Source of the DNA: a virus
DNA length: 26,896 bases
Strand: one strand, 5' to 3'
Virus record (IMG/VR): IMGVR_UViG_3300031624_000011
Coordinates: 1 to 26,896 of that record
Made by a program: the position numbers and the translations under genes. The notes beneath the pieces are model-generated. The model did not search any database. It was not told the DNA's origin and saw nothing but the letters and a program-made list of their open reading frames with translations. Shown here in pieces: positions 1-15,961 of this stretch (within the stretch, counting starts at the first letter, position 1; every line of letters begins with the position of its first letter).

Positions 1-429
1 TAGATGATCTTCTTCATCGCCAGATTCATCAAATACTTGTGTACCATGTCCAGAATGATAATAAAATAATTCATTTCCTACCTTTCTTCCAGATACCAAC
101 CAATTTAGGTGTCCTAATATATTCTTTTTTGTTGCTTGATTATCTAAAAGCATTTTAATACCGGTTTCTTCAAATCCACAACACTCAATTAAAAATTTCT
201 TAATGTTGTTTGCGTCATTCACACAACCACTTAAATCCATTCCTGGAGTTGAGTAATGATTGATTCCAACTATAACTGCAAATTTTTTCATATTCTCCTC
301 CTCACTCGTTATTGGTGGAATATAATTATAATCGTCATCATCACCATCATTTTTTCTTTTTTTAATATATAGAAAAGCACCTACTATTAAAACCAGTCCT
401 ACTACAATAAATATTCCAAAATTTGGCAT
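1..429 (-). CDS. membrane-anchored caspase-like (metacaspase, peptidase C14) protease, C-terminus cut by window edge
   Basis: The ORF is open from ATG at 429 to the window edge (143 codons, no stop). Residues 4-22 form one hydrophobic membrane segment, then a KKRKN stop-transfer stretch and an acidic linker (DGDDDD). A caspase/metacaspase fold starts near residue 47: FAVIVGINHY, then CVNDANNIKKFL, and the catalytic-His motif YYHSGHG followed by GDEED (about residues 123-140). The catalytic Cys (usually a DSCHSG-type motif) would lie beyond the window. Both ATG 429 (AGGAGG upstream) and the in-frame internal ATG at 291 (GGAGGAG upstream) have strong ribosome sites, so anchored and soluble forms may both be made. 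It is last in the operon after lon, 13 bases downstream. The family assignment is firm from motifs; activity is inferred. Confidence 0.85.
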   Translation of the reverse strand, partial: MPNFGIFIVVGLVLIVGAFLYIKKRKNDGDDDDYNYIPPITSEEENMKKFAVIVGINHYSTPGMDLSGCVNDANNIKKFLIECCGFEETGIKMLLDNQATKKNILGHLNWLVSGRKVGNELFYYHSGHGTQVFDESGDEEDHL

Positions 430-442
430 AATATTTCCTCCT

Positions 443-2773
443 TTAAAAAACTATTTTTAAAACTTGTGATGCTTTTTTTACAAAATAGAACTTAATTTCT
501 TCAGAAATATTTTTAGGAAGACCATCTAAATCATTTTTATTCCATTCAGGTAAAATAATTTCTGTCATTCCTGCTCTATGTGCACCTATTACCTTTTCCT
601 TTACACCACCAACAGGTAATATATCGCCTTTTAAAGTTATTTCGCCACTCATGGCTATGCCTTTTCTGATAGATTTATCAGTAAACAATGAAACTAAAGT
701 ACAAAATAAAGCAATCCCAGCCGAAGGACCATCTTTTGGGGTAGATCCTTCTGGTACATGAATATGGATATCATTTTCTTTTATATCGGGTATTTTAATT
801 TTATTCATACTGCGAATATAACTAAAAGCAATGATAGCAGATTCTTGCATAACCTCACCCAACTGTCCAGTTAAAATAATAGTATCATCATCAGAACCTT
901 TAAAAACCGCAGCTTCAATATATCCAACAGTACCACCACTATCTCCTACAAATAATACTGGACACATACCTGCAGATAATTCTCGCACTTTATTTGTTGG
1001 TGGAACTTTTTCCCTGCCTAAATATTTTCTTAAATTACTTAATTTAATTGAACAAGAATTCAATTTTCCTGCTACTATTTCTGTGGCAACACCACGGCAC
1101 GCATTTGCTACTTCTCTTTCTAAATTTCTTACACCAGCTTCAAATGTATAACTGTTTATTAGTTCGTCTAAAGCTCTTTTAGTAAAAGTAATTTGATTAG
1201 ACATTAATCCATGAGCTTTTTTTTGTTTTGGTATTAGAAATTTATTAGCAATATTTATCTTCTCTGGCTGTGTATAACCAAAAAATCTTATAACTTCCAT
1301 TCTATCCCTAAGTGCGGGCGGAATAGTTCTCAAAACATTAGCAGTAGTTATAAACATTACTTTTGATAAATCAAATGGAACATCTAAATAATGATCTGAA
1401 AAGGAGTAATTTTGTTCTGGATCAAGAACCTCCAACAAAGCTGAAGAAGGATCTCCTCTAAAATCCTTACCTAGTTTATCCACCTCATCAAGCATAAATA
1501 CTGGATTATTGGTTCCAGCGCGCTTCAAACCCTGGATAATTCTACCAGGTAATGCACCAACATAAGTTCGTCTGTGGCCTCGAATCTCAGCCTCATCACG
1601 AACACCGCCCAATGATATTCTAATGAACTCACGTCCTAAAGATGACGCTATTGATTTACCTAAAGAAGTTTTTCCTGTTCCTGGCGGTCCAACAAAACAT
1701 AAAATAGGACCTTTAGAATTATTTTTTAACTGTCTTACAGCAAGATATTCTAAAACTCTTTTCTTAGGTTCCTTTAAACCATAATGATCTTTATTTAAAA
1801 CCTTTTCGGCTTCATTTATATCAAGCTTATCTTCTGTACTTTTTGCCCAAGGTAATTCAGTTAAACAATCAAGATAAGTGGTTATAACAGATCGTTCTGC
1901 TGATGATGGGTGTACCCGTTTCAAACGTTTTATTTCTTTTAAAGCTTCTTTTTCAACTTTTTCTGGAAGTTTTGCTTCTTTTATTTTCTGCTTATATTCC
2001 TCAACTTCATCATAGTCATCTAATTCATCCTCACCTAATTCTTTTTTTATAGCCGTAATCTGTTCGCGCAGAAAAAATTTCTTATGGTTTTCAGTCATTA
2101 ATTCCTTAGCCTTTTTGGCTATTTCACTACCAACTTTGTATTCTTCTATTTTTAAAACAATAAGATCAATAAGTTTCTTTAATCTTTCTTCAACATCTAA
2201 TATTTCTAAAAATTCTTGTTTATATTCATCATTAATAGGCAAAGAAGAAGCGATCATATCAGCTATTTGACTAGGATTCTTAATAGAATTTATCATACTG
2301 CTAAATTCTTTAGGAATATTTGTATTAAAACTTACCAACTCTTTATATAATTTAACAACAGTGGGTACTAATATCTTAGTCTCCTGCTTCCATACATTTT
2401 CACTTTCAAGTAAATCTACTTTTGCATATAAAGAAGAGTTTTTAACCATGTTAATATATTTAAAACGCACTAATCCTTGTAAAACTAATTTAGTCTTGTT
2501 ATCCACACTATGTAGTTCGAGAATTTTTGCCACAACACCAACATCAAAAAAATCTTTTTTAGATGTCTGTCCAAATTTATTTGTGGGCTTCAATAAACCT
2601 ACAATTCTATCTTTATCTTCAAGTTTTTCTATAATTTCTTCAGCAAATATATATTCACTTTTACTATTATCCAAAATAATAGGATGAATCATTTTTGGAA
2701 ATAAAATTGTTTCTGACATTGGAATTATAGGGATTAAATTAGGTATATTATTCTTCGTTTTTGTAATTTTCAT
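443..2773 (-). CDS. lon: ATP-dependent Lon protease
   Basis: Full-length LonA-type protease (776 aa; bacterial Lon is usually about 780-800). It degrades misfolded and regulatory proteins in the cytoplasm as a hexamer. Visible parts are an N-terminal substrate-binding domain (about 1-200), a coiled coil (about 200-270), AAA+ Walker A GPPGTGKT (362-369), Walker B VFMLDEVDK (425-433), an arginine-finger region PPALRDRME, and the C-terminal peptidase domain with catalytic Ser in PKDGPSAG (S684) and Lys in GGVKEKVIGA (K726). All catalytic parts are present, so it should be active. Start and stop overlap with the upstream gene as TAATG, implying translational coupling. Lon is rare in phages; it lies next to a caspase-like protease, in the same operon as a ClpA-like unfoldase. 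Confidence 0.97.
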   Translation of the reverse strand: MKITKTKNNIPNLIPIIPMSETILFPKMIHPIILDNSKSEYIFAEEIIEKLEDKDRIVGLLKPTNKFGQTSKKDFFDVGVVAKILELHSVDNKTKLVLQGLVRFKYINMVKNSSLYAKVDLLESENVWKQETKILVPTVVKLYKELVSFNTNIPKEFSSMINSIKNPSQIADMIASSLPINDEYKQEFLEILDVEERLKKLIDLIVLKIEEYKVGSEIAKKAKELMTENHKKFFLREQITAIKKELGEDELDDYDEVEEYKQKIKEAKLPEKVEKEALKEIKRLKRVHPSSAERSVITTYLDCLTELPWAKSTEDKLDINEAEKVLNKDHYGLKEPKKRVLEYLAVRQLKNNSKGPILCFVGPPGTGKTSLGKSIASSLGREFIRISLGGVRDEAEIRGHRRTYVGALPGRIIQGLKRAGTNNPVFMLDEVDKLGKDFRGDPSSALLEVLDPEQNYSFSDHYLDVPFDLSKVMFITTANVLRTIPPALRDRMEVIRFFGYTQPEKINIANKFLIPKQKKAHGLMSNQITFTKRALDELINSYTFEAGVRNLEREVANACRGVATEIVAGKLNSCSIKLSNLRKYLGREKVPPTNKVRELSAGMCPVLFVGDSGGTVGYIEAAVFKGSDDDTIILTGQLGEVMQESAIIAFSYIRSMNKIKIPDIKENDIHIHVPEGSTPKDGPSAGIALFCTLVSLFTDKSIRKGIAMSGEITLKGDILPVGGVKEKVIGAHRAGMTEIILPEWNKNDLDGLPKNISEEIKFYFVKKASQVLKIVF

Positions 2774-4154: not shown

Positions 4155-4761
4155 CACGCCGCTCCTTGATTTTAGCCATTATTTCTTGTTTTGATTCCAA
4201 ATTAGATTTGCTTGAGTCTATCCAATTCCTATACAACATGTCAGAATGCCTAGCTCTGTTAAAACCATATTCATTAACTAAACAACTTTCCCAGTGCCGG
4301 CCGTGAAATTCTCTATATTCTTTTAACACATAGTATTGATGATTAAGAAAACAATGAGACACTCTATCATAAAGACCTATTATTTCCTTTGGATCATATT
4401 CTTTCAAAGCCATAATAGTAAAAACATGAAACATCTTTTGAAATATCTTTTGATGTTTTCTAGTTGAGGGTTGTTCATCCACCCATTCGCCTTTTTCTTT
4501 ATAAACCACATCAAGTTTATCTAATTTTTTTATAAGCTTAGAATAAAACTTTTTTGAACATCTTATAATGTTATAAAAATTCTCATAGAAAAAATGCCAT
4601 TCATCATCCGTATAAAGAATTTCATTATAAATTTCTTTTATAAGTTCCCAAGCACGAGGTTCATCATGATTAATACCTTCACCCTCATATTCCCATATCT
4701 CAACTTCTAACAATACATTATCCTTTTCTTTATTGAAAAAACTCCTCACCTTTTCCAACAT
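4111..4761 (-). CDS. hypothetical protein, 216 aa
   Basis: Charged, Trp/Tyr-rich, mostly helical protein with no membrane segment. Residue runs such as DEWHFFYENFYNIIRCSKKFY and FHGRHWESCLVNEYGFNRARHSDMLYRNW look like a compact cytoplasmic domain. I do not recognise it. GGAG precedes ATG 4761. It is followed by an overlapping coiled-coil ORF and preceded by a small secreted protein in the same operon. Confidence 0.7.
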   Translation of the reverse strand: MLEKVRSFFNKEKDNVLLEVEIWEYEGEGINHDEPRAWELIKEIYNEILYTDDEWHFFYENFYNIIRCSKKFYSKLIKKLDKLDVVYKEKGEWVDEQPSTRKHQKIFQKMFHVFTIMALKEYDPKEIIGLYDRVSHCFLNHQYYVLKEYREFHGRHWESCLVNEYGFNRARHSDMLYRNWIDSSKSNLESKQEIMAKIKERRDGQKTENKVNTSKN

Positions 4762-6538: not shown

Positions 6539-6973
6539 TTAAGATGCTCGTAATAATTTATCTAATATATCTCTATATTGCCGCTGTTTTCTAAGTTCTT
6601 CTTCTAATTTATTTTTAAGATATGAATCATTGGGTCTTTTTCGTAATTCATTTCTTATTTCTCTTTCTTTATCAACAGACTGGCTAGTTAATTGTTGATA
6701 AAATCTTATGTCTGCATTCTTTCTATCCTGTTGAATAGTTTTAAGCAAATCATTCGCAGCTAGACTTATATCTTCTTTAACTTCTTGTTTAACCTCTATA
6801 ACTTTCTGTTCAATAGCAATAATTTCTGGTTTCATTGCAAAAGTATTCATAGAACCCCAAATAACACCACCAACAAGTAAAACCAAACCAAATCCTCCAG
6901 CAAGAAATTTAATCCAAGGATTAATCTTTTTAAATACTGGTGGACAATCACCATTCCCATTTTCTTTAGCCAT
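6539..6973 (-). CDS. single-pass membrane coiled-coil protein, 144 aa
   Basis: A short polar N-terminus with Cys10, then one transmembrane segment at about residues 22-44 (FLAGGFGLVLLVGGVIWGS), followed by about 100 residues of charged, heptad-rich helix (IEQKVIEVKQEVKEDIS and later KNKLEEELRKQRQYRD). GGAGGGG precedes ATG 6973. No family recognised. A spanin-like or membrane-tethering role is possible but cannot be shown. Confidence 0.65.
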   Translation of the reverse strand: MAKENGNGDCPPVFKKINPWIKFLAGGFGLVLLVGGVIWGSMNTFAMKPEIIAIEQKVIEVKQEVKEDISLAANDLLKTIQQDRKNADIRFYQQLTSQSVDKEREIRNELRKRPNDSYLKNKLEEELRKQRQYRDILDKLLRAS

Positions 6974-6974
6974 T

Positions 6975-7679
6975 TTACCCCTCCTTTATCTGTTCTACTG
7001 CTTCGGGGTTAGTTAGTATTAAAGAACCTATTCCTATTTCTTTACATCCCAAATCATAAAGTTCCCACATGTCGGTAATATGCGTCATAGAACACCCTGC
7101 CACATTCAATCCCTCATGATTAAATTTCTTAATAAATTCCCAATTTTTTTGCTTAGCTGCTTTACCTGACCAACCACCTAAATATTTTCCTGGCACAGAA
7201 TTCATTCTTATACCTACAACATTATCCAAATCATATTCATAGGGATCTTGATTACAATTAAGTTTTAAATATAATGGGTAATTAGATTTAGGTATTACTC
7301 TATTGTTAAAACTTTTAACATTAGGACATGAAAAATTTAACTCTATTCCAGCTGGGTTTAAATCTGATATCTCAAGGTGTTCAATCATATCTTCTATCTG
7401 CCAATCATAACCAGCAATAGAAACTATTATATTTGATATATTATACATAGAATTATCATAAAACGTATAATCTAATAACCAATTAAAAAACCCAATATTA
7501 TGTAACCCAACCCTATTCCATACAGTATCATTGTATTTAAAAATAGCAAAAGGCATACCTAATTTCTTGTCCCAAGTTAAAGTTCTAGTAACTCTAGAAA
7601 AATTAGGAAAATTATATTTCTTATGCCAATCATATCCAAAACCATACCCCATAACTGATGCTGAATAAAAAAATTTCAT
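6975..7679 (-). CDS. dihydroorotate-dehydrogenase-like FMN-binding TIM-barrel protein (short form)
   Basis: 234 aa, against about 300-310 for cellular class 1 dihydroorotate dehydrogenases. Recognisable pieces in order: TRTLTWDKK (about 31-39), NRVGLHNIGF (55-64), VSIAGYDW (86-93), IELNFSCPN (112-120, the hallmark substrate-loop motif), LYLKLN (136-141), GGWSGKAAK (168-176, cf. GGLSG), and the last beta-alpha units VAGCSMTHITDMWELYDLGCKEIGIGSL (about 193-220). The order matches the family, with shortened loops. The cellular enzyme oxidises dihydroorotate in pyrimidine synthesis. The standard NGGI/GGI phosphate-binding stretch is altered, so the substrate may differ or activity may be lost. 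Confidence 0.7.
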   Translation of the reverse strand: MKFFYSASVMGYGFGYDWHKKYNFPNFSRVTRTLTWDKKLGMPFAIFKYNDTVWNRVGLHNIGFFNWLLDYTFYDNSMYNISNIIVSIAGYDWQIEDMIEHLEISDLNPAGIELNFSCPNVKSFNNRVIPKSNYPLYLKLNCNQDPYEYDLDNVVGIRMNSVPGKYLGGWSGKAAKQKNWEFIKKFNHEGLNVAGCSMTHITDMWELYDLGCKEIGIGSLILTNPEAVEQIKEG

Positions 7680-7681
7680 AA

Positions 7682-7789
7682 TTAATAATCCTTAAATTTT
7701 TTAACAACTTCTTTAGTATTAGGAATATAAATAACTTTGTACCCTATATAACCAATTAATAATAATATAAATAATTGTAATAAAACCAT
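7682..7789 (-). CDS. membrane miniprotein, 35 aa
   Basis: From ATG 7789: a hydrophobic stretch (LLQLFILLLIGYIGYKVIYI) followed by a basic tail (KEVVKKFKDY). The upstream gene ends at 7791, so translation is probably coupled. No homologue recognised; the single membrane helix is clear. Confidence 0.45.
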   Translation of the reverse strand: MVLLQLFILLLIGYIGYKVIYIPNTKEVVKKFKDY

Positions 7790-7790
7790 T

Positions 7791-8099
7791 TTATTTAGTT
7801 ACTCCATTAAATAACTGCGTTATGTTACCCACACATTTTTCACACAACAACGCTGTACCACTCATTATAATACAACCACCATTTCCAACATATAACTTTA
7901 AATATTTATTATTTTTCGCCTCACATAAATCACAAGCCATTTCTTTACCTGCCACATGTTCTACTATATCAAATTTTACAATATTAAAACGTGGTCGGCC
8001 TTCAATATCTTCCAAATGCCTTGTATTTTCTATTTCTCCAGGCACGTAAAATTCTATAGGTGGTGTGTATTCAAATGTATATGTTTTTTCACTACACAT
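7791..8099 (-). CDS. hypothetical protein with two CxxC motifs, 102 aa
   Basis: AAGGAG lies before ATG 8099, so the N-terminus is MCSEKTYTFEYTPP. CDLC (about residue 57) and CEKC (about residue 90) could form a zinc site; the segment between has LKLYVGNGGCIIMSG. No family recognised. Confidence 0.65.
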   Translation of the reverse strand: MCSEKTYTFEYTPPIEFYVPGEIENTRHLEDIEGRPRFNIVKFDIVEHVAGKEMACDLCEAKNNKYLKLYVGNGGCIIMSGTALLCEKCVGNITQLFNGVTK

Positions 8100-8816: not shown

Positions 8817-10787
8817 TTAATCCCCTGTTAAATTATCTTCTGCCTCTTTATATTGATCAGACATATAAAAAGGAGCATCATCTATTTTTTGTTCTATGTT
8901 AAAAATTACTTTCTCTTTATCAAGACCTACATAAATATTAACATCTCTTATATCCTCAGAAAGTAATTTTTGAGCTAAAGGTGTAGATATTGTTTTTTCT
9001 ATAGTTCTTTTTAAAGGTCTGGCACCATACTGCTCATCAATTCCCTTTTTATAAATAAACTCTTTAATTTTATCATCAAACTTCAATTCTACATCTTTAT
9101 AATCAGTATCATTGTTTTTCAAATTATCATTTAGTTTATACAATTCAATATCTATAATCTTCATATAATCTTTCTTAACAAGAGATTTAAAATAAATAAT
9201 ATTATCGAGTCTATTAAGAAATTCTGGTTTAAATTTATTTTTAAGTGCTTTACTTATAACACTATCTCTTTTATCATCAGTAATTTTAGCCACATCACCA
9301 AAACCAATAGTTTTACCAATATCACCAACTTCTCTAACACCAACATTAGATGTTAAAACAACAACAGCATCTTTAAAAGAAACTGGATTTCCTTTACCAT
9401 CCGTTAATCGGCCTTCCTCAAGTATTTGTAATAACAATTCATGTACTTTAGAACTTGCTTTTTCTACTTCATCAAAAACAACTATAGTAAAGGGATTAGT
9501 TATTAAAGCATTGGTTAAAATACCACCACTATCATGACCTATATAACCAGCTGGCGCTCCAATTAATTTAGCATATTCATGATCAGATGAATATTCTGAA
9601 CAGTCTATCGTGATCATGTTATCTCTACCTTTAATTAATTCATCAGCTAATACTTTGGTTGCAAATGTTTTTCCAATACCGGTCTGACCAGCAAATAGAA
9701 ATGACCCAATCGGTCTGTATGGATCTTTTAAGCCAACACTAGCTCTTTGAATTGCTTGTGTTAGATTATCTACAGCTTTGTCTTGTCCAATCAAAAACAC
9801 CTTCATATTATCACCAAGTTTTAATAATTCTTTTTTAGGCACATCCTTAAATTTCTTCTGAGACTTTTTTTTCATATATTGGCTCATAGAACCAGCATCA
9901 GTAGATTTTATACCACAACCATTATGTCTATTATCAGTTTTCGGCTGTCTTTCTGATTGATCAGAAAGTTCCTGCGCTCTCTCATAAGTTAAAAAAGAAT
10001 TACATGAACGGCATAATTGATAAAGCTCATTCATAAGAATAGGTGGAGCAACTCTTGCTGGCACACCTAAACTATCCAAATAACTAAATAATTCTTCAAA
10101 ATCTATTATACATTTAGATACTACGTACGCATTAAAACTTGTTCTGTTATGAAAATATCTTTGTTTTAAAATAATATCTCCATCTTGTTCATTAAATTTT
10201 TTAACATTAATATATTTATTTATTCTTTTCCACCATTTCTGTGTAATAGTATTATCTAAATCTTCAACTGTTTTATTAACATCTTCTTTAGATTGTTTAC
10301 TTTCTTTATCTTCATCTTCCTCGATAAATTTTTTATGTTCTTCTTCAAATGTCTCTTGGAGTTTACTTATATCTTCATAATAAGAAACCCCCCAATATTT
10401 ATTCTCCGTTAGAAGTTTTTCACCCACTTTTAACTTACCGTCTTTAATTTTAATAACAAAATTTTTATTCAAAATTAAATTATCAGGATCGAGAAGTGTA
10501 TTTATATCTATTATACATGCCATTAATTCTTCTCTAACTTTAAGTAAATCCGGCGGATCATCCATCTGTTGATTAATATGATGTAAAAGTTGATTTATAT
10601 TAGCCACACAAGTAGCAATAATAAAATCCTCATAATAACTCTTAGTAATTTGACCTTTTTCTTTAGCCAAATATGCTAATTTATCTTCAATTTCATTTAC
10701 AGGTATTTTTAAAATTAGAACTTCAAAACCAGCTTCTTCTAAATATTTTTTAAAAACAGAATAATCGCCGCTATCTTTTTTAGACAT
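8817..10787 (-). CDS. single-module ClpA/ClpC-like AAA+ unfoldase with a novel N-terminal region
   Basis: 656 aa. The C-terminal half (about 325-625) is a class I Clp D2-type module: GQDKAV, GSFLFAGQTGIGKT (Walker A 367-374), IVVFDEVEK (Walker B, D439-E440), EGRLTDGKG, NRLDNII (arginine finger near 526) and GARPLKR sensor 2 (589-595). TIGFGD (493-498) sits where ClpA/ClpC/ClpX carry the ClpP-docking IGL/IGF/LGF loop, so it may feed host ClpP. It lacks the Clp N-domain and the D1 module. Residues 1-325 are unlike any Clp N-terminus I know and include a possible Cys/His zinc site (CRSC at 259-262 with H288/C291). Likely role: unfolding specific proteins for ClpP (inference). Confidence 0.85.
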   Translation of the reverse strand: MSKKDSGDYSVFKKYLEEAGFEVLILKIPVNEIEDKLAYLAKEKGQITKSYYEDFIIATCVANINQLLHHINQQMDDPPDLLKVREELMACIIDINTLLDPDNLILNKNFVIKIKDGKLKVGEKLLTENKYWGVSYYEDISKLQETFEEEHKKFIEEDEDKESKQSKEDVNKTVEDLDNTITQKWWKRINKYINVKKFNEQDGDIILKQRYFHNRTSFNAYVVSKCIIDFEELFSYLDSLGVPARVAPPILMNELYQLCRSCNSFLTYERAQELSDQSERQPKTDNRHNGCGIKSTDAGSMSQYMKKKSQKKFKDVPKKELLKLGDNMKVFLIGQDKAVDNLTQAIQRASVGLKDPYRPIGSFLFAGQTGIGKTFATKVLADELIKGRDNMITIDCSEYSSDHEYAKLIGAPAGYIGHDSGGILTNALITNPFTIVVFDEVEKASSKVHELLLQILEEGRLTDGKGNPVSFKDAVVVLTSNVGVREVGDIGKTIGFGDVAKITDDKRDSVISKALKNKFKPEFLNRLDNIIYFKSLVKKDYMKIIDIELYKLNDNLKNNDTDYKDVELKFDDKIKEFIYKKGIDEQYGARPLKRTIEKTISTPLAQKLLSEDIRDVNIYVGLDKEKVIFNIEQKIDDAPFYMSDQYKEAEDNLTGD

Positions 10788-10814
10788 AATATATTCTCCT
10801 ATATATTTTAACTG

Positions 10815-11738
10815 TTAACTAATTTTATTTTTTTTATATAAATCATTACCATACTGTATAACTGAAACGGCTTGGTCATGTGTTAATGTATTAACATCAG
10901 GGACACTTCCCAATACTTGCTGAGCAAGATCTTCATATTTATAACCCCTCATATCATATAAACTTTGAATGGCTATCTTCTGAACATCACTTATACTATC
11001 AACACTTGGTGTTTCTGTTGTTGTAGATACAGGCGCAGATACAGTAAGAGGTTCTTTCACCGACGGAAGCGGTGCTTTACCCATAATAGGAGCACCATTA
11101 AGAGGGGCACCATGTATAGGTTCTGGAATCTTAGGTATTGATTCATTATGTCTCAGCGGTTCAGGTGTTGATTGCACCATAGTAGTGGTTGGGGGAACCT
11201 GTTGTATATTCATTTCCTGAACTATTGGCGGCTTGCTCGTTGCAAGCACTGGTGGGGATGTGACAACTGGCGGTCCAGTTGGTTTAGATGGTGCTGGCGG
11301 TAATTCCTGTACCGGAAGCGCTGCCACTGGTTTCGGACCAGGCATTCCTGTATCAGTAGGAGTAGTAGTAATTTCATTATCATCATCTAGATATAAACCA
11401 ACACCCCATCTTCTACAAGCATTTACAAGTGCTTTAGAATATGCTGATTTAAAAGAACTTCCAGGTTCTCCACCAGCATCTTTATGCCCACCAAAACCCT
11501 CATGCCAAAACCATGTTTTGGATTCAGGATCTAATACTAATACTTTAACTCTAACAATAACAGTACCATCTGCAAAAGCATCCTGAAATCTAACTTCTGT
11601 ACACCAATTACCTTGAAATAGCCTATTCATTCTATCAGTTACATCATTGGCAGCGACATACGGATACCTTCCACCTCTTCCTGGTCTCGTAGCCACATTA
11701 AATTTGTCATAAAAACCGTTAAAAATTATCTCATCCAT
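10815..11738 (-). CDS. Rad52/Rad22-family single-strand annealing protein
   Basis: 307 aa. Residues about 8-120 carry the Rad52 core: GGRYPYVAANDVTDRMN, FQGNWCTEV, TVIVRVKVLV, WHEGFGGH, then SSFKSAYSKALVNACRRWGVGLYLDD, the hallmark helix. A Pro-rich disordered linker (about 128-240) joins a small helical C-terminal domain (about 245-300, ISDVQKIAIQSLYDM) of the type found in phage annealing proteins for partner (SSB) contact. It anneals complementary single strands in phage recombination and replication. GGAG precedes ATG 11738, and a strong promoter lies 35 bases upstream; it is the first gene of the long operon reaching the left edge. Confidence 0.9.
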   Translation of the reverse strand: MDEIIFNGFYDKFNVATRPGRGGRYPYVAANDVTDRMNRLFQGNWCTEVRFQDAFADGTVIVRVKVLVLDPESKTWFWHEGFGGHKDAGGEPGSSFKSAYSKALVNACRRWGVGLYLDDDNEITTTPTDTGMPGPKPVAALPVQELPPAPSKPTGPPVVTSPPVLATSKPPIVQEMNIQQVPPTTTMVQSTPEPLRHNESIPKIPEPIHGAPLNGAPIMGKAPLPSVKEPLTVSAPVSTTTETPSVDSISDVQKIAIQSLYDMRGYKYEDLAQQVLGSVPDVNTLTHDQAVSVIQYGNDLYKKNKIS

Positions 11739-11773
11739 AATAAAAATCTCCTTTTCCTTCGTTCTTAATACTT

Positions 11774-11801
11774 AATATAAGCATTATTTTTCATTTGTCA
11801 A
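11774..11801 (-). promoter_or_regulatory. phage promoter P1 (TTGACA-N16-TATATT)
   Basis: -35 TTGACA at 11796-11801, -10 TATATT at 11774-11779, spacer 16. It shares AAAT after the -35 and TAATGCT before the -10 with six other sites here. Start of transcription is expected near 11767, giving a short leader to the Rad52-like gene. Confidence 0.8.
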
Positions 11802-11812
11802 GTTATTTTATT

Positions 11813-12032
11813 AAAAAATTAATGATAGTGTGCTATTACGCCAAAGGTACCCGCTGGCTGGTTACTACGGGCAGAGGTTTACAGTCCCAACCTAAGCAAC
11901 CCCAAATACCTTGCATCCAGCCGTGAGCTCAGACGGTATTCGGAGCTGCATCTATAGAGGTTTTACCTCTTTAACGGTTCCACTCTTTAAAAGATGGCTG
12001 CTTCTAAGCCAACTTCCTGCCATTAATTTTTT
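11813..12032 (-). ncRNA. structured RNA containing a 23S rRNA GTPase-associated-centre (L11-binding) mimic with a ~140-nt insertion
   Basis: No ORF. RNA read from the minus strand. Positions 12021-11981 match the 23S rRNA GTPase-associated centre (E. coli about 1051-1090), including GUUGGCUUAGAAGCAGCC (helix 43) and UUUAAAGAGUG. Positions 11841-11828 give GCGUAAUAGC-ACAC, the helix 44 loop. Between them, 11842-11980, is an insertion absent from rRNA. It folds as a small hairpin (AGAGGU/ACCUCU) and a 15-bp helix with three G-U pairs (11935-11949 with 11896-11910) whose loop holds GGCUGG, complementary to CCAGCC at 11856-11861 (possible pseudoknot). AU-rich arms at 12022-12032 and 11813-11823 pair perfectly and close the domain; the 3' arm ends in a U-run and could terminate. 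Likely transcribed from P2 behind two small genes. Confidence 0.85.
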
Positions 12033-12524: not shown

Positions 12525-12549
12525 TTTTTTCTCCTCTTTTCTTTTTTTG

Positions 12550-12621
12550 AGTCCCTGGCGGGAATTGAACCCGCGACACAGTGTTTTAGAGGCACCTGTT
12601 CTACCACTGAACTACAGGGAC
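12550..12621 (-). tRNA. tRNA with CUA anticodon (putative amber suppressor)
   Basis: 72-nt cloverleaf: acceptor GTCCCTG/CAGGGAC, D-stem GTTC/GAAC, T-arm GCGGG-TTCAATT-CCCGC, discriminator U, no encoded CCA. Anticodon loop CTCTAAA puts CTA at 34-36 (U33 present), which reads UAG. The anticodon stem GGTGC/ACACT has a C-A mismatch at 31-39 and a G-U at 27-43. The body resembles the Gln and Asn tRNAs of this window. Amino-acid identity is not determinable by eye. Confidence 0.75.
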
Positions 12622-15634: not shown

Positions 15635-15961
15635 TGGTGGAGACGCTGGGAATCGAACCCAGGTCCAGAATGTTTTGCTTCGAAACGTTGACAGCGATAA
15701 TAACGCCAGAAAGAAGGTGAATCATACAAACAAAAAACGTTTAACAGATTCTGTTGCTAAGCTCTGCTGGGCTTCATGGCTTTTAAGCGGCTAACGCCGT
15801 TAAAGGCTCAGAATGGCGTACTGGACATGAGTTCAACATATCCGCCATATAAGTTATCATAGATTTACCATCTATATTTTTTCACAATTTTAACGTAGTT
15901 TGTGAGTTCTACGCGCTGAGGTTTCGACCAAATCCACCCTGTCGAAGCCAATATCGTCCCC
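15635..15961 (-). ncRNA. ssrA: tmRNA (transfer-messenger RNA)
   Basis: 327 nt with the tRNA-like ends: 5' GGGGACGATATTGGCTTCGA and 3' GGTTCGATTCCCAGCGTCTCC followed by encoded ACCA. The 5' GGGGACG pairs with CGTCTCC. The tag frame ends GCG-TTA-GCC-GCT-TAA (Ala-Leu-Ala-Ala-stop, stop at 15783-15785), the classic degradation tail. Upstream in that frame the codons read V-R-H-S-E-P-L-T, so the tag is probably some form of (A)(VR)HSEPLTALAA; the resume codon cannot be fixed by eye. It adds a degradation tag to proteins on stalled ribosomes. A promoter-like site ends four bases upstream. Phage-encoded tmRNAs are known but uncommon. Confidence 0.95.

Follow-up and report, generated by a model that had tools for sequence, protein, structure and literature searches.

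Metacaspases, a family whose fold is already known, have been discussed both as weapons against phages and as the bacterial origin of programmed cell death. Phage lysis is described as the work of holins, endolysins and spanins, and a caspase-family protease is not known to belong to that scheme. The closest described enzymes are the type I metacaspases (yeast MCA1/Yca1, C. glabrata MCA-I, T. brucei MCA2; PF00656). The phage protein described here, as judged from its full-length relatives, resembles them in carrying p20 and p10 on a single chain with a short linker, in its fold, in its HSGHG and DxCHSG motifs and in most of the acidic residues of the Ca2+ site; it differs in that a transmembrane helix and an acidic linker replace the usual N-terminal domain, in that the gene has an internal start with its own Shine-Dalgarno site and lies beside an endolysin gene, and in that the third Ca2+-ligand Asp is not kept. 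One N-terminal transmembrane helix was reported in 46 of 671 bacterial metacaspases (Asplund-Samuelsson 2012, PMC3501461), which have the same order of helix and then metacaspase domain; these, however, are chromosomal and some of their helices may be signal peptides, whereas the phage copies form a group of their own on a long stem.

Among viruses, the soluble phage metacaspases (485-kb phage LR745208, L006, L013/L162) are likewise phage-encoded C14 proteins with both His and Cys, but they lack the transmembrane helix, have DUF1353 or a BTLCP proteinase as neighbours and sit on a different branch of the tree. Viral structure matches (Foldseek) come otherwise from giant viruses of eukaryotes; the top ones, C14 proteins of NCLDVs such as Fadolivirus, Clandestinovirus and medusavirus, have no endolysin link. 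Finally, the bacterial gasdermin-caspase anti-phage systems also place a caspase-type protease at a membrane death step, but no gasdermin or sensor gene is found among the ten proteins near the phage metacaspase. As far as the open literature and the searched collections show, the anchored phage metacaspase, its conserved internal start and its endolysin neighbour are novel; no earlier report of phage metacaspases was found in the openly accessible literature, a scope that leaves subscription journals aside. With a membrane-anchored metacaspase whose gene neighbours the endolysin gene, a phage would be putting a death protease to its own use.

A metacaspase gene at the edge of a virus record

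The window, by which we mean the whole stretch of DNA analysed, is a complete 26,896-base virus record in which nearly all long frames lie on the minus strand (Table 1). The frame running from 429 to 1 almost certainly encodes a metacaspase, a caspase-type protease: Pfam Peptidase_C14 (PF00656) matches residues 48-134 at 52.4 bits against a cut-off of 21.4, and the histidine stands in the context YYHSGHG. The contig edge cuts the frame before the p10 part and the catalytic Cys are reached. No overlapping contig that would extend the gene leftward came out of protein-guided scans of viral contigs, and no GenBank phage is near-identical to the window.

Table 1. Features of the metacaspase locus in the window
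Feature	Coordinates	Strand	Evidence
Metacaspase gene, 5' part, 143 codons	1..429	-	Open frame to contig edge; PF00656 E 7.8e-14; 73% identity to N-terminal part of 306-aa L003 protein
DESGDEED, start of metacaspase cation-binding loop	7..30	-	Alignment to C. glabrata MCA-I loop (PMC9622860)
HSGHG motif with catalytic His128	43..57	-	Alignment to L003 H128 and solved metacaspases
Internal ATG (Met47), predicted soluble-form start	289..291	-	Met kept in three phages; alignment with bacterial homologues
Acidic disordered linker, aa 27-46	292..351	-	Sequence; pLDDT <50 for residues 31-43, L003 model
Internal AGGAGG Shine-Dalgarno, within Glu codons of SEEE	297..302	-	-12.2 kcal/mol duplex
Single transmembrane helix, aa 5-27, ending KKRK	349..417	-	Kyte-Doolittle 19-mer maximum 2.84; helix 5-27 in L003 AlphaFold model
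AGGAGG Shine-Dalgarno of long anchored form (ATG at 429)	437..442	-	-11.6 kcal/mol duplex with anti-SD
lon protease gene	443..2773	-	Lon_C E 5.3e-67; 13 nt upstream of metacaspase ATG

Scans of 2.9 million viral contigs yielded two full-length relatives of the same architecture, L003 and L005 (310 aa), which are about 63% identical to each other. Both have the transmembrane helix, the acidic linker, HSGHG and DTCHSG, with His/Cys dyads at H128/C183 in L003 and H125/C180 in L005, and both carry p20 and p10 on one chain with a short linker, p10 being a part that lies beyond the window's edge. The sequence-only reading had proposed a membrane-anchored caspase-like protease in a phage, and this proposal is supported: the window itself has the PF00656 match, the helix and HSGHG, and the relatives with the same helix and linker have the Cys. 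We describe the gene product as a type-I-like metacaspase with a His/Cys dyad and p20 plus p10, the Cys and p10 being seen in the relatives; the catalytic Cys of the window's own copy, like its endolysin, would lie past the contig edge.

Fold and catalytic residues

In L003 the Pfam C14 match is a single domain over residues 49-287 (E 3.4e-27, 96.1 bits), and the best sequence matches of the protein are solved metacaspases (7qp0, 1.7e-35). Structure prediction on this relative (AlphaFold, 24 sequences, pLDDT 82.9) gives helix 5-27 and a complete caspase-like sheet, and the model matches Arabidopsis MC9 at Z 28 and both CgMCA-I and Geobacter 3bij at Z 23, in keeping with the fold that had been proposed from the letters of the window. 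D144, D160 and D161 of L003 align with D198, D214 and D215 of CgMCA-I, which together with D245 are the Ca2+-site ligands reported for CgMCA-I/TbMCA2 (PMC9622860); since the position of D245 is occupied by R190, Ca2+ dependence is uncertain, and we regard Ca2+ control of the phage enzyme as likely but not settled. Two low-confidence loops of the model, 192-197 and 212-220, are K/R-rich, and a poorly ordered K/R-rich linker between p20 and p10 is as expected for self-processing, although in a predicted model this is only suggestive.

Membrane anchor and linker

The anchor is confined to the window, L003 and L005, the other phage metacaspases examined having none. The helix is not signal-peptide-like, because its positive charges come after it; by the positive-inside rule this charge pattern would give an N-out/C-in orientation with the protease domain in the cytoplasm. 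In the window protein the acidic linker that follows reads GDDDDYNYIPPITSEEEN.

A conserved internal start

Both starts of the metacaspase gene are preceded by strong Shine-Dalgarno sites in all three phages, with duplexes of -12.9 (outer) and -12.2 kcal/mol (inner) in L003 and -12.0 and -12.1 kcal/mol in L005, while the medians at internal in-frame ATGs of the three phages range from -1.6 to -2.2 kcal/mol. Conserved internal Met codons in orthologues were compared pairwise, 18 between the window and L003 and 47 between the window and L005; among these 65, the inner site of the metacaspase is the sole one at -12 in both comparisons. One other passes the cut-off, at -9.1; its frame was probably drawn too long, so that this Met is the real start. 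When synonymous codons are resampled, a site as strong as the inner one arises with p of 0.017 for the window, 0.016 for L003 and 0.060 for L005, values that are not independent since the genomes share ancestry.

In alignments the inner Met falls on the initial Met of soluble, free-standing bacterial metacaspases, and for this reason the SEEE segment looks like an ancestral ribosome site that is now translated. The conserved inner start and its Shine-Dalgarno site support two predicted products, one anchored and one soluble; the suggestion that two spaced starts might give such forms, originally made for the window's gene, is strengthened by their retention in three phages.

Gene neighbourhood and the link to endolysins

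In L003 the metacaspase stop at 4613 is followed by a GH24 endolysin gene from 4626 (PF00959 1.2e-49, phrog_7), and in L005 the order is metacaspase, GIY-YIG homing endonuclease, Amidase_3 endolysin (4.7e-23, phrog_435). In both phages the endolysin closes the gene run, and the genes beyond have the opposite direction. The GH24 and Amidase_3 endolysins are unrelated, and the presence of unrelated endolysins in the same place beside the same metacaspase suggests that the two genes form a lysis module and were not simply passed on together as one block by chance. The adjacency rests on two phages because the searched collections hold just two full-length anchored members, and the two genes may be adjacent merely through co-transcription.

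No holin was identified beside the metacaspase, and no PHROG lysis family matches the metacaspase itself, such matches being limited to its neighbours. Among 54 contigs with an L005-type amidase, L005 is the only one with a metacaspase at the amidase locus. The soluble phage metacaspases (L006, L013, L162, LR745208) have no recognised endolysin adjoining, and tests for two endolysin families beside them were negative; in LR745208 a gene some 4 kb downstream of the metacaspase gives a weak Rz-like spanin match (E 0.003).

Several further genes in these regions may be recorded here. The homing endonuclease of L005 (9055-9759) is of the GIY-YIG/NUMOD3 kind, and its insertion separates the metacaspase from the amidase endolysin. 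A window gene at 6539-6973 encodes a protein with one N-terminal transmembrane helix and a coiled-coil-like tail, an i-spanin-like shape; it has no PHROG or Pfam match and a 50% counterpart in L005's contig. Convergent with the endolysin of the L003 phage is an NAD salvage set, located on L004: NAD synthase (7103-7966), nicotinate phosphoribosyltransferase (10169-11374) and an isochorismatase-fold, nicotinamidase-like protein (11386-11949).

Possible roles of the anchored metacaspase

Our reading of the locus as a whole is a protease that acts late, on the inside of the host membrane, probably depends on Ca2+ and is linked to lysis; we hold it tentatively, at somewhat less than an even chance. 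Translation from 429 would give a form that a single N-out/C-in helix tethers to the inner membrane on its cytoplasmic side, and translation from 291 a soluble form; the endolysin, encoded like the metacaspase where a long gene run ends, would be made along with them. Ca2+ is low in the cytosol and high in the medium, so that membrane damage would switch on a tethered Ca2+-dependent protease: the enzyme would stay quiet while cytosolic Ca2+ is low, and a breach of the membrane at lysis would let Ca2+ enter and lead to self-cleavage in the Lys/Arg-rich p20-p10 linker and to maturation. Once active, the enzyme would cleave proteins of the host or the phage on the membrane and close to it, completing lysis or freeing virions. 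Orientation, activity, Ca2+ trigger, late timing and the lysis role itself are all presumed here. Maturation of CgMCA-I takes days in vitro (PMC9622860), and by analogy such a pace would be slow for a lysis trigger, which counts against a role in lysis.

A bolder version, which we consider rather unlikely, would make the dual-start metacaspase, anchored and free, a new protease-based lysis step, in which it would sense a breach through Ca2+ influx, dismantle host structures and release itself by self-cleavage at KKRK, and, jointly with this, would have SEEE record how the gene of a soluble bacterial metacaspase acquired an in-frame transmembrane leader. Given the endolysin link and the conserved dual start, the lysis question can be addressed in ordinary laboratory strains.

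The main rival is protein turnover or host takeover, in which the metacaspase would work with the phage Lon, a Clp-like AAA+ protein and tmRNA to reshape or recycle the host proteome, its nearness to the endolysin reflecting a shared operon end. The lon gene lies immediately upstream of the metacaspase in the window and in L003, a Clp-type AAA+ gene (phrog_4871, 5.6e-101) and a tmRNA gene lie within the window, and eukaryotic metacaspases have non-death roles in protein homeostasis (PMC12914765). The link to lon that was noted from the window's sequence is, however, weaker: the order stands in the window and L003, but lon is absent from the L005 site and from its 45.8-kb contig, where metacaspase and endolysin nonetheless stay together. 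The Clp-like gene, moreover, is retained in two relatives, L106 and L107, that have no metacaspase at the site. We think turnover a possible role, but less likely than not. A read-through fusion of lon and metacaspase was also considered and ruled out, as lon ends in TAA in a different frame.

A second rival would make the protein an effector against competitors, a membrane-tethered death protease that aborts infection by other phages or blocks superinfection. The closest PADLOC model is 'caspase' (PDLC02987, 1e-21), gasdermins are activated by bacterial caspase-like proteases in anti-phage defence (PMC9612521), and the acquisition of metacaspases by phages is patchy and repeated. Against this, the enzyme is free-standing and has no sensor domain, it is placed beside an endolysin, and neither a gasdermin nor a NACHT protein nor any other caspase-system partner occurs among the ten nearby proteins; the neighbourhood lends no support to defence or abortive infection, which the earlier reading had named as the usual role of caspase-like proteases, and we judge such a role improbable. 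A counter-defence role, in which the protease would cleave host immune proteins or its membrane form would divert host caspase-type defence as a decoy, fits a phage copy of a host defence-type enzyme that was gained repeatedly; counter-defence genes are usually early, whereas the metacaspase ends its run with an endolysin, and this role seems a little more doubtful still. The contig stops before the Cys, so the window copy might be decaying or have lost catalysis, but this is very improbable: it keeps the His, the anchor, the two ribosome sites and, over the common part, 73% identity to L003, and no stop or frameshift interrupts its 143 codons.

Distribution and origin

Only one of 50,697 GenBank phage records, LR745208, has a metacaspase match, and it was the sole match to five different queries; metacaspase genes are thus very rare in known phages. 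More distant metacaspases lacking a transmembrane helix are found on the phage-like contigs L006 and L013 and in LR745208 (L007), and a further distant one comes from G008. In two large relatives, L106 on a 228-kb contig and L107 on a 161-kb contig, the Clp-like, HD and Endonuc_Holl genes remain, with neither lon nor metacaspase at the site; the 161-kb contig instead has another, soluble metacaspase, 71% identical to that of L013, beside DUF1353. In the tree the phage label needs four changes, the starred branches forcing two, and L003 and L005 are grouped at 100/100 on a stem of 0.77; some branches are very long, and there is no clear bacterial donor. From the different type and site in the 161-kb relative together with the tree, we conclude that this broad phage lineage gained metacaspases at least twice.

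The second, soluble type lies beside DUF1353 in a block that is syntenic in two phages (L163 8924-10546, L013 5461-6867), with two lipoprotein-like genes and a small transmembrane protein upstream; L163 also has a BTLCP proteinase.

tRNA, tmRNA and other genes

The window contains a tmRNA gene (15635-15961) with an unusually long predicted tag, standing among 14 ordinary tRNA genes and one tRNA with anticodon CTA (12549-12621), which ARAGORN calls tRNA-Pyl and which is possibly an amber suppressor. Recoding of TAG by this tRNA was considered and set aside: TAG still terminates several genes of the lineage, and the metacaspase frame is independent of TAG. At 6975-7679 the window encodes a short dihydroorotate-dehydrogenase-like protein (234 aa) with a partial match to the family profile. 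A 1,149-aa protein (L098 7642-11091) weakly matches the beta subunits of phage RNA polymerases; the L003 phage may thus encode an RNA polymerase of its own.
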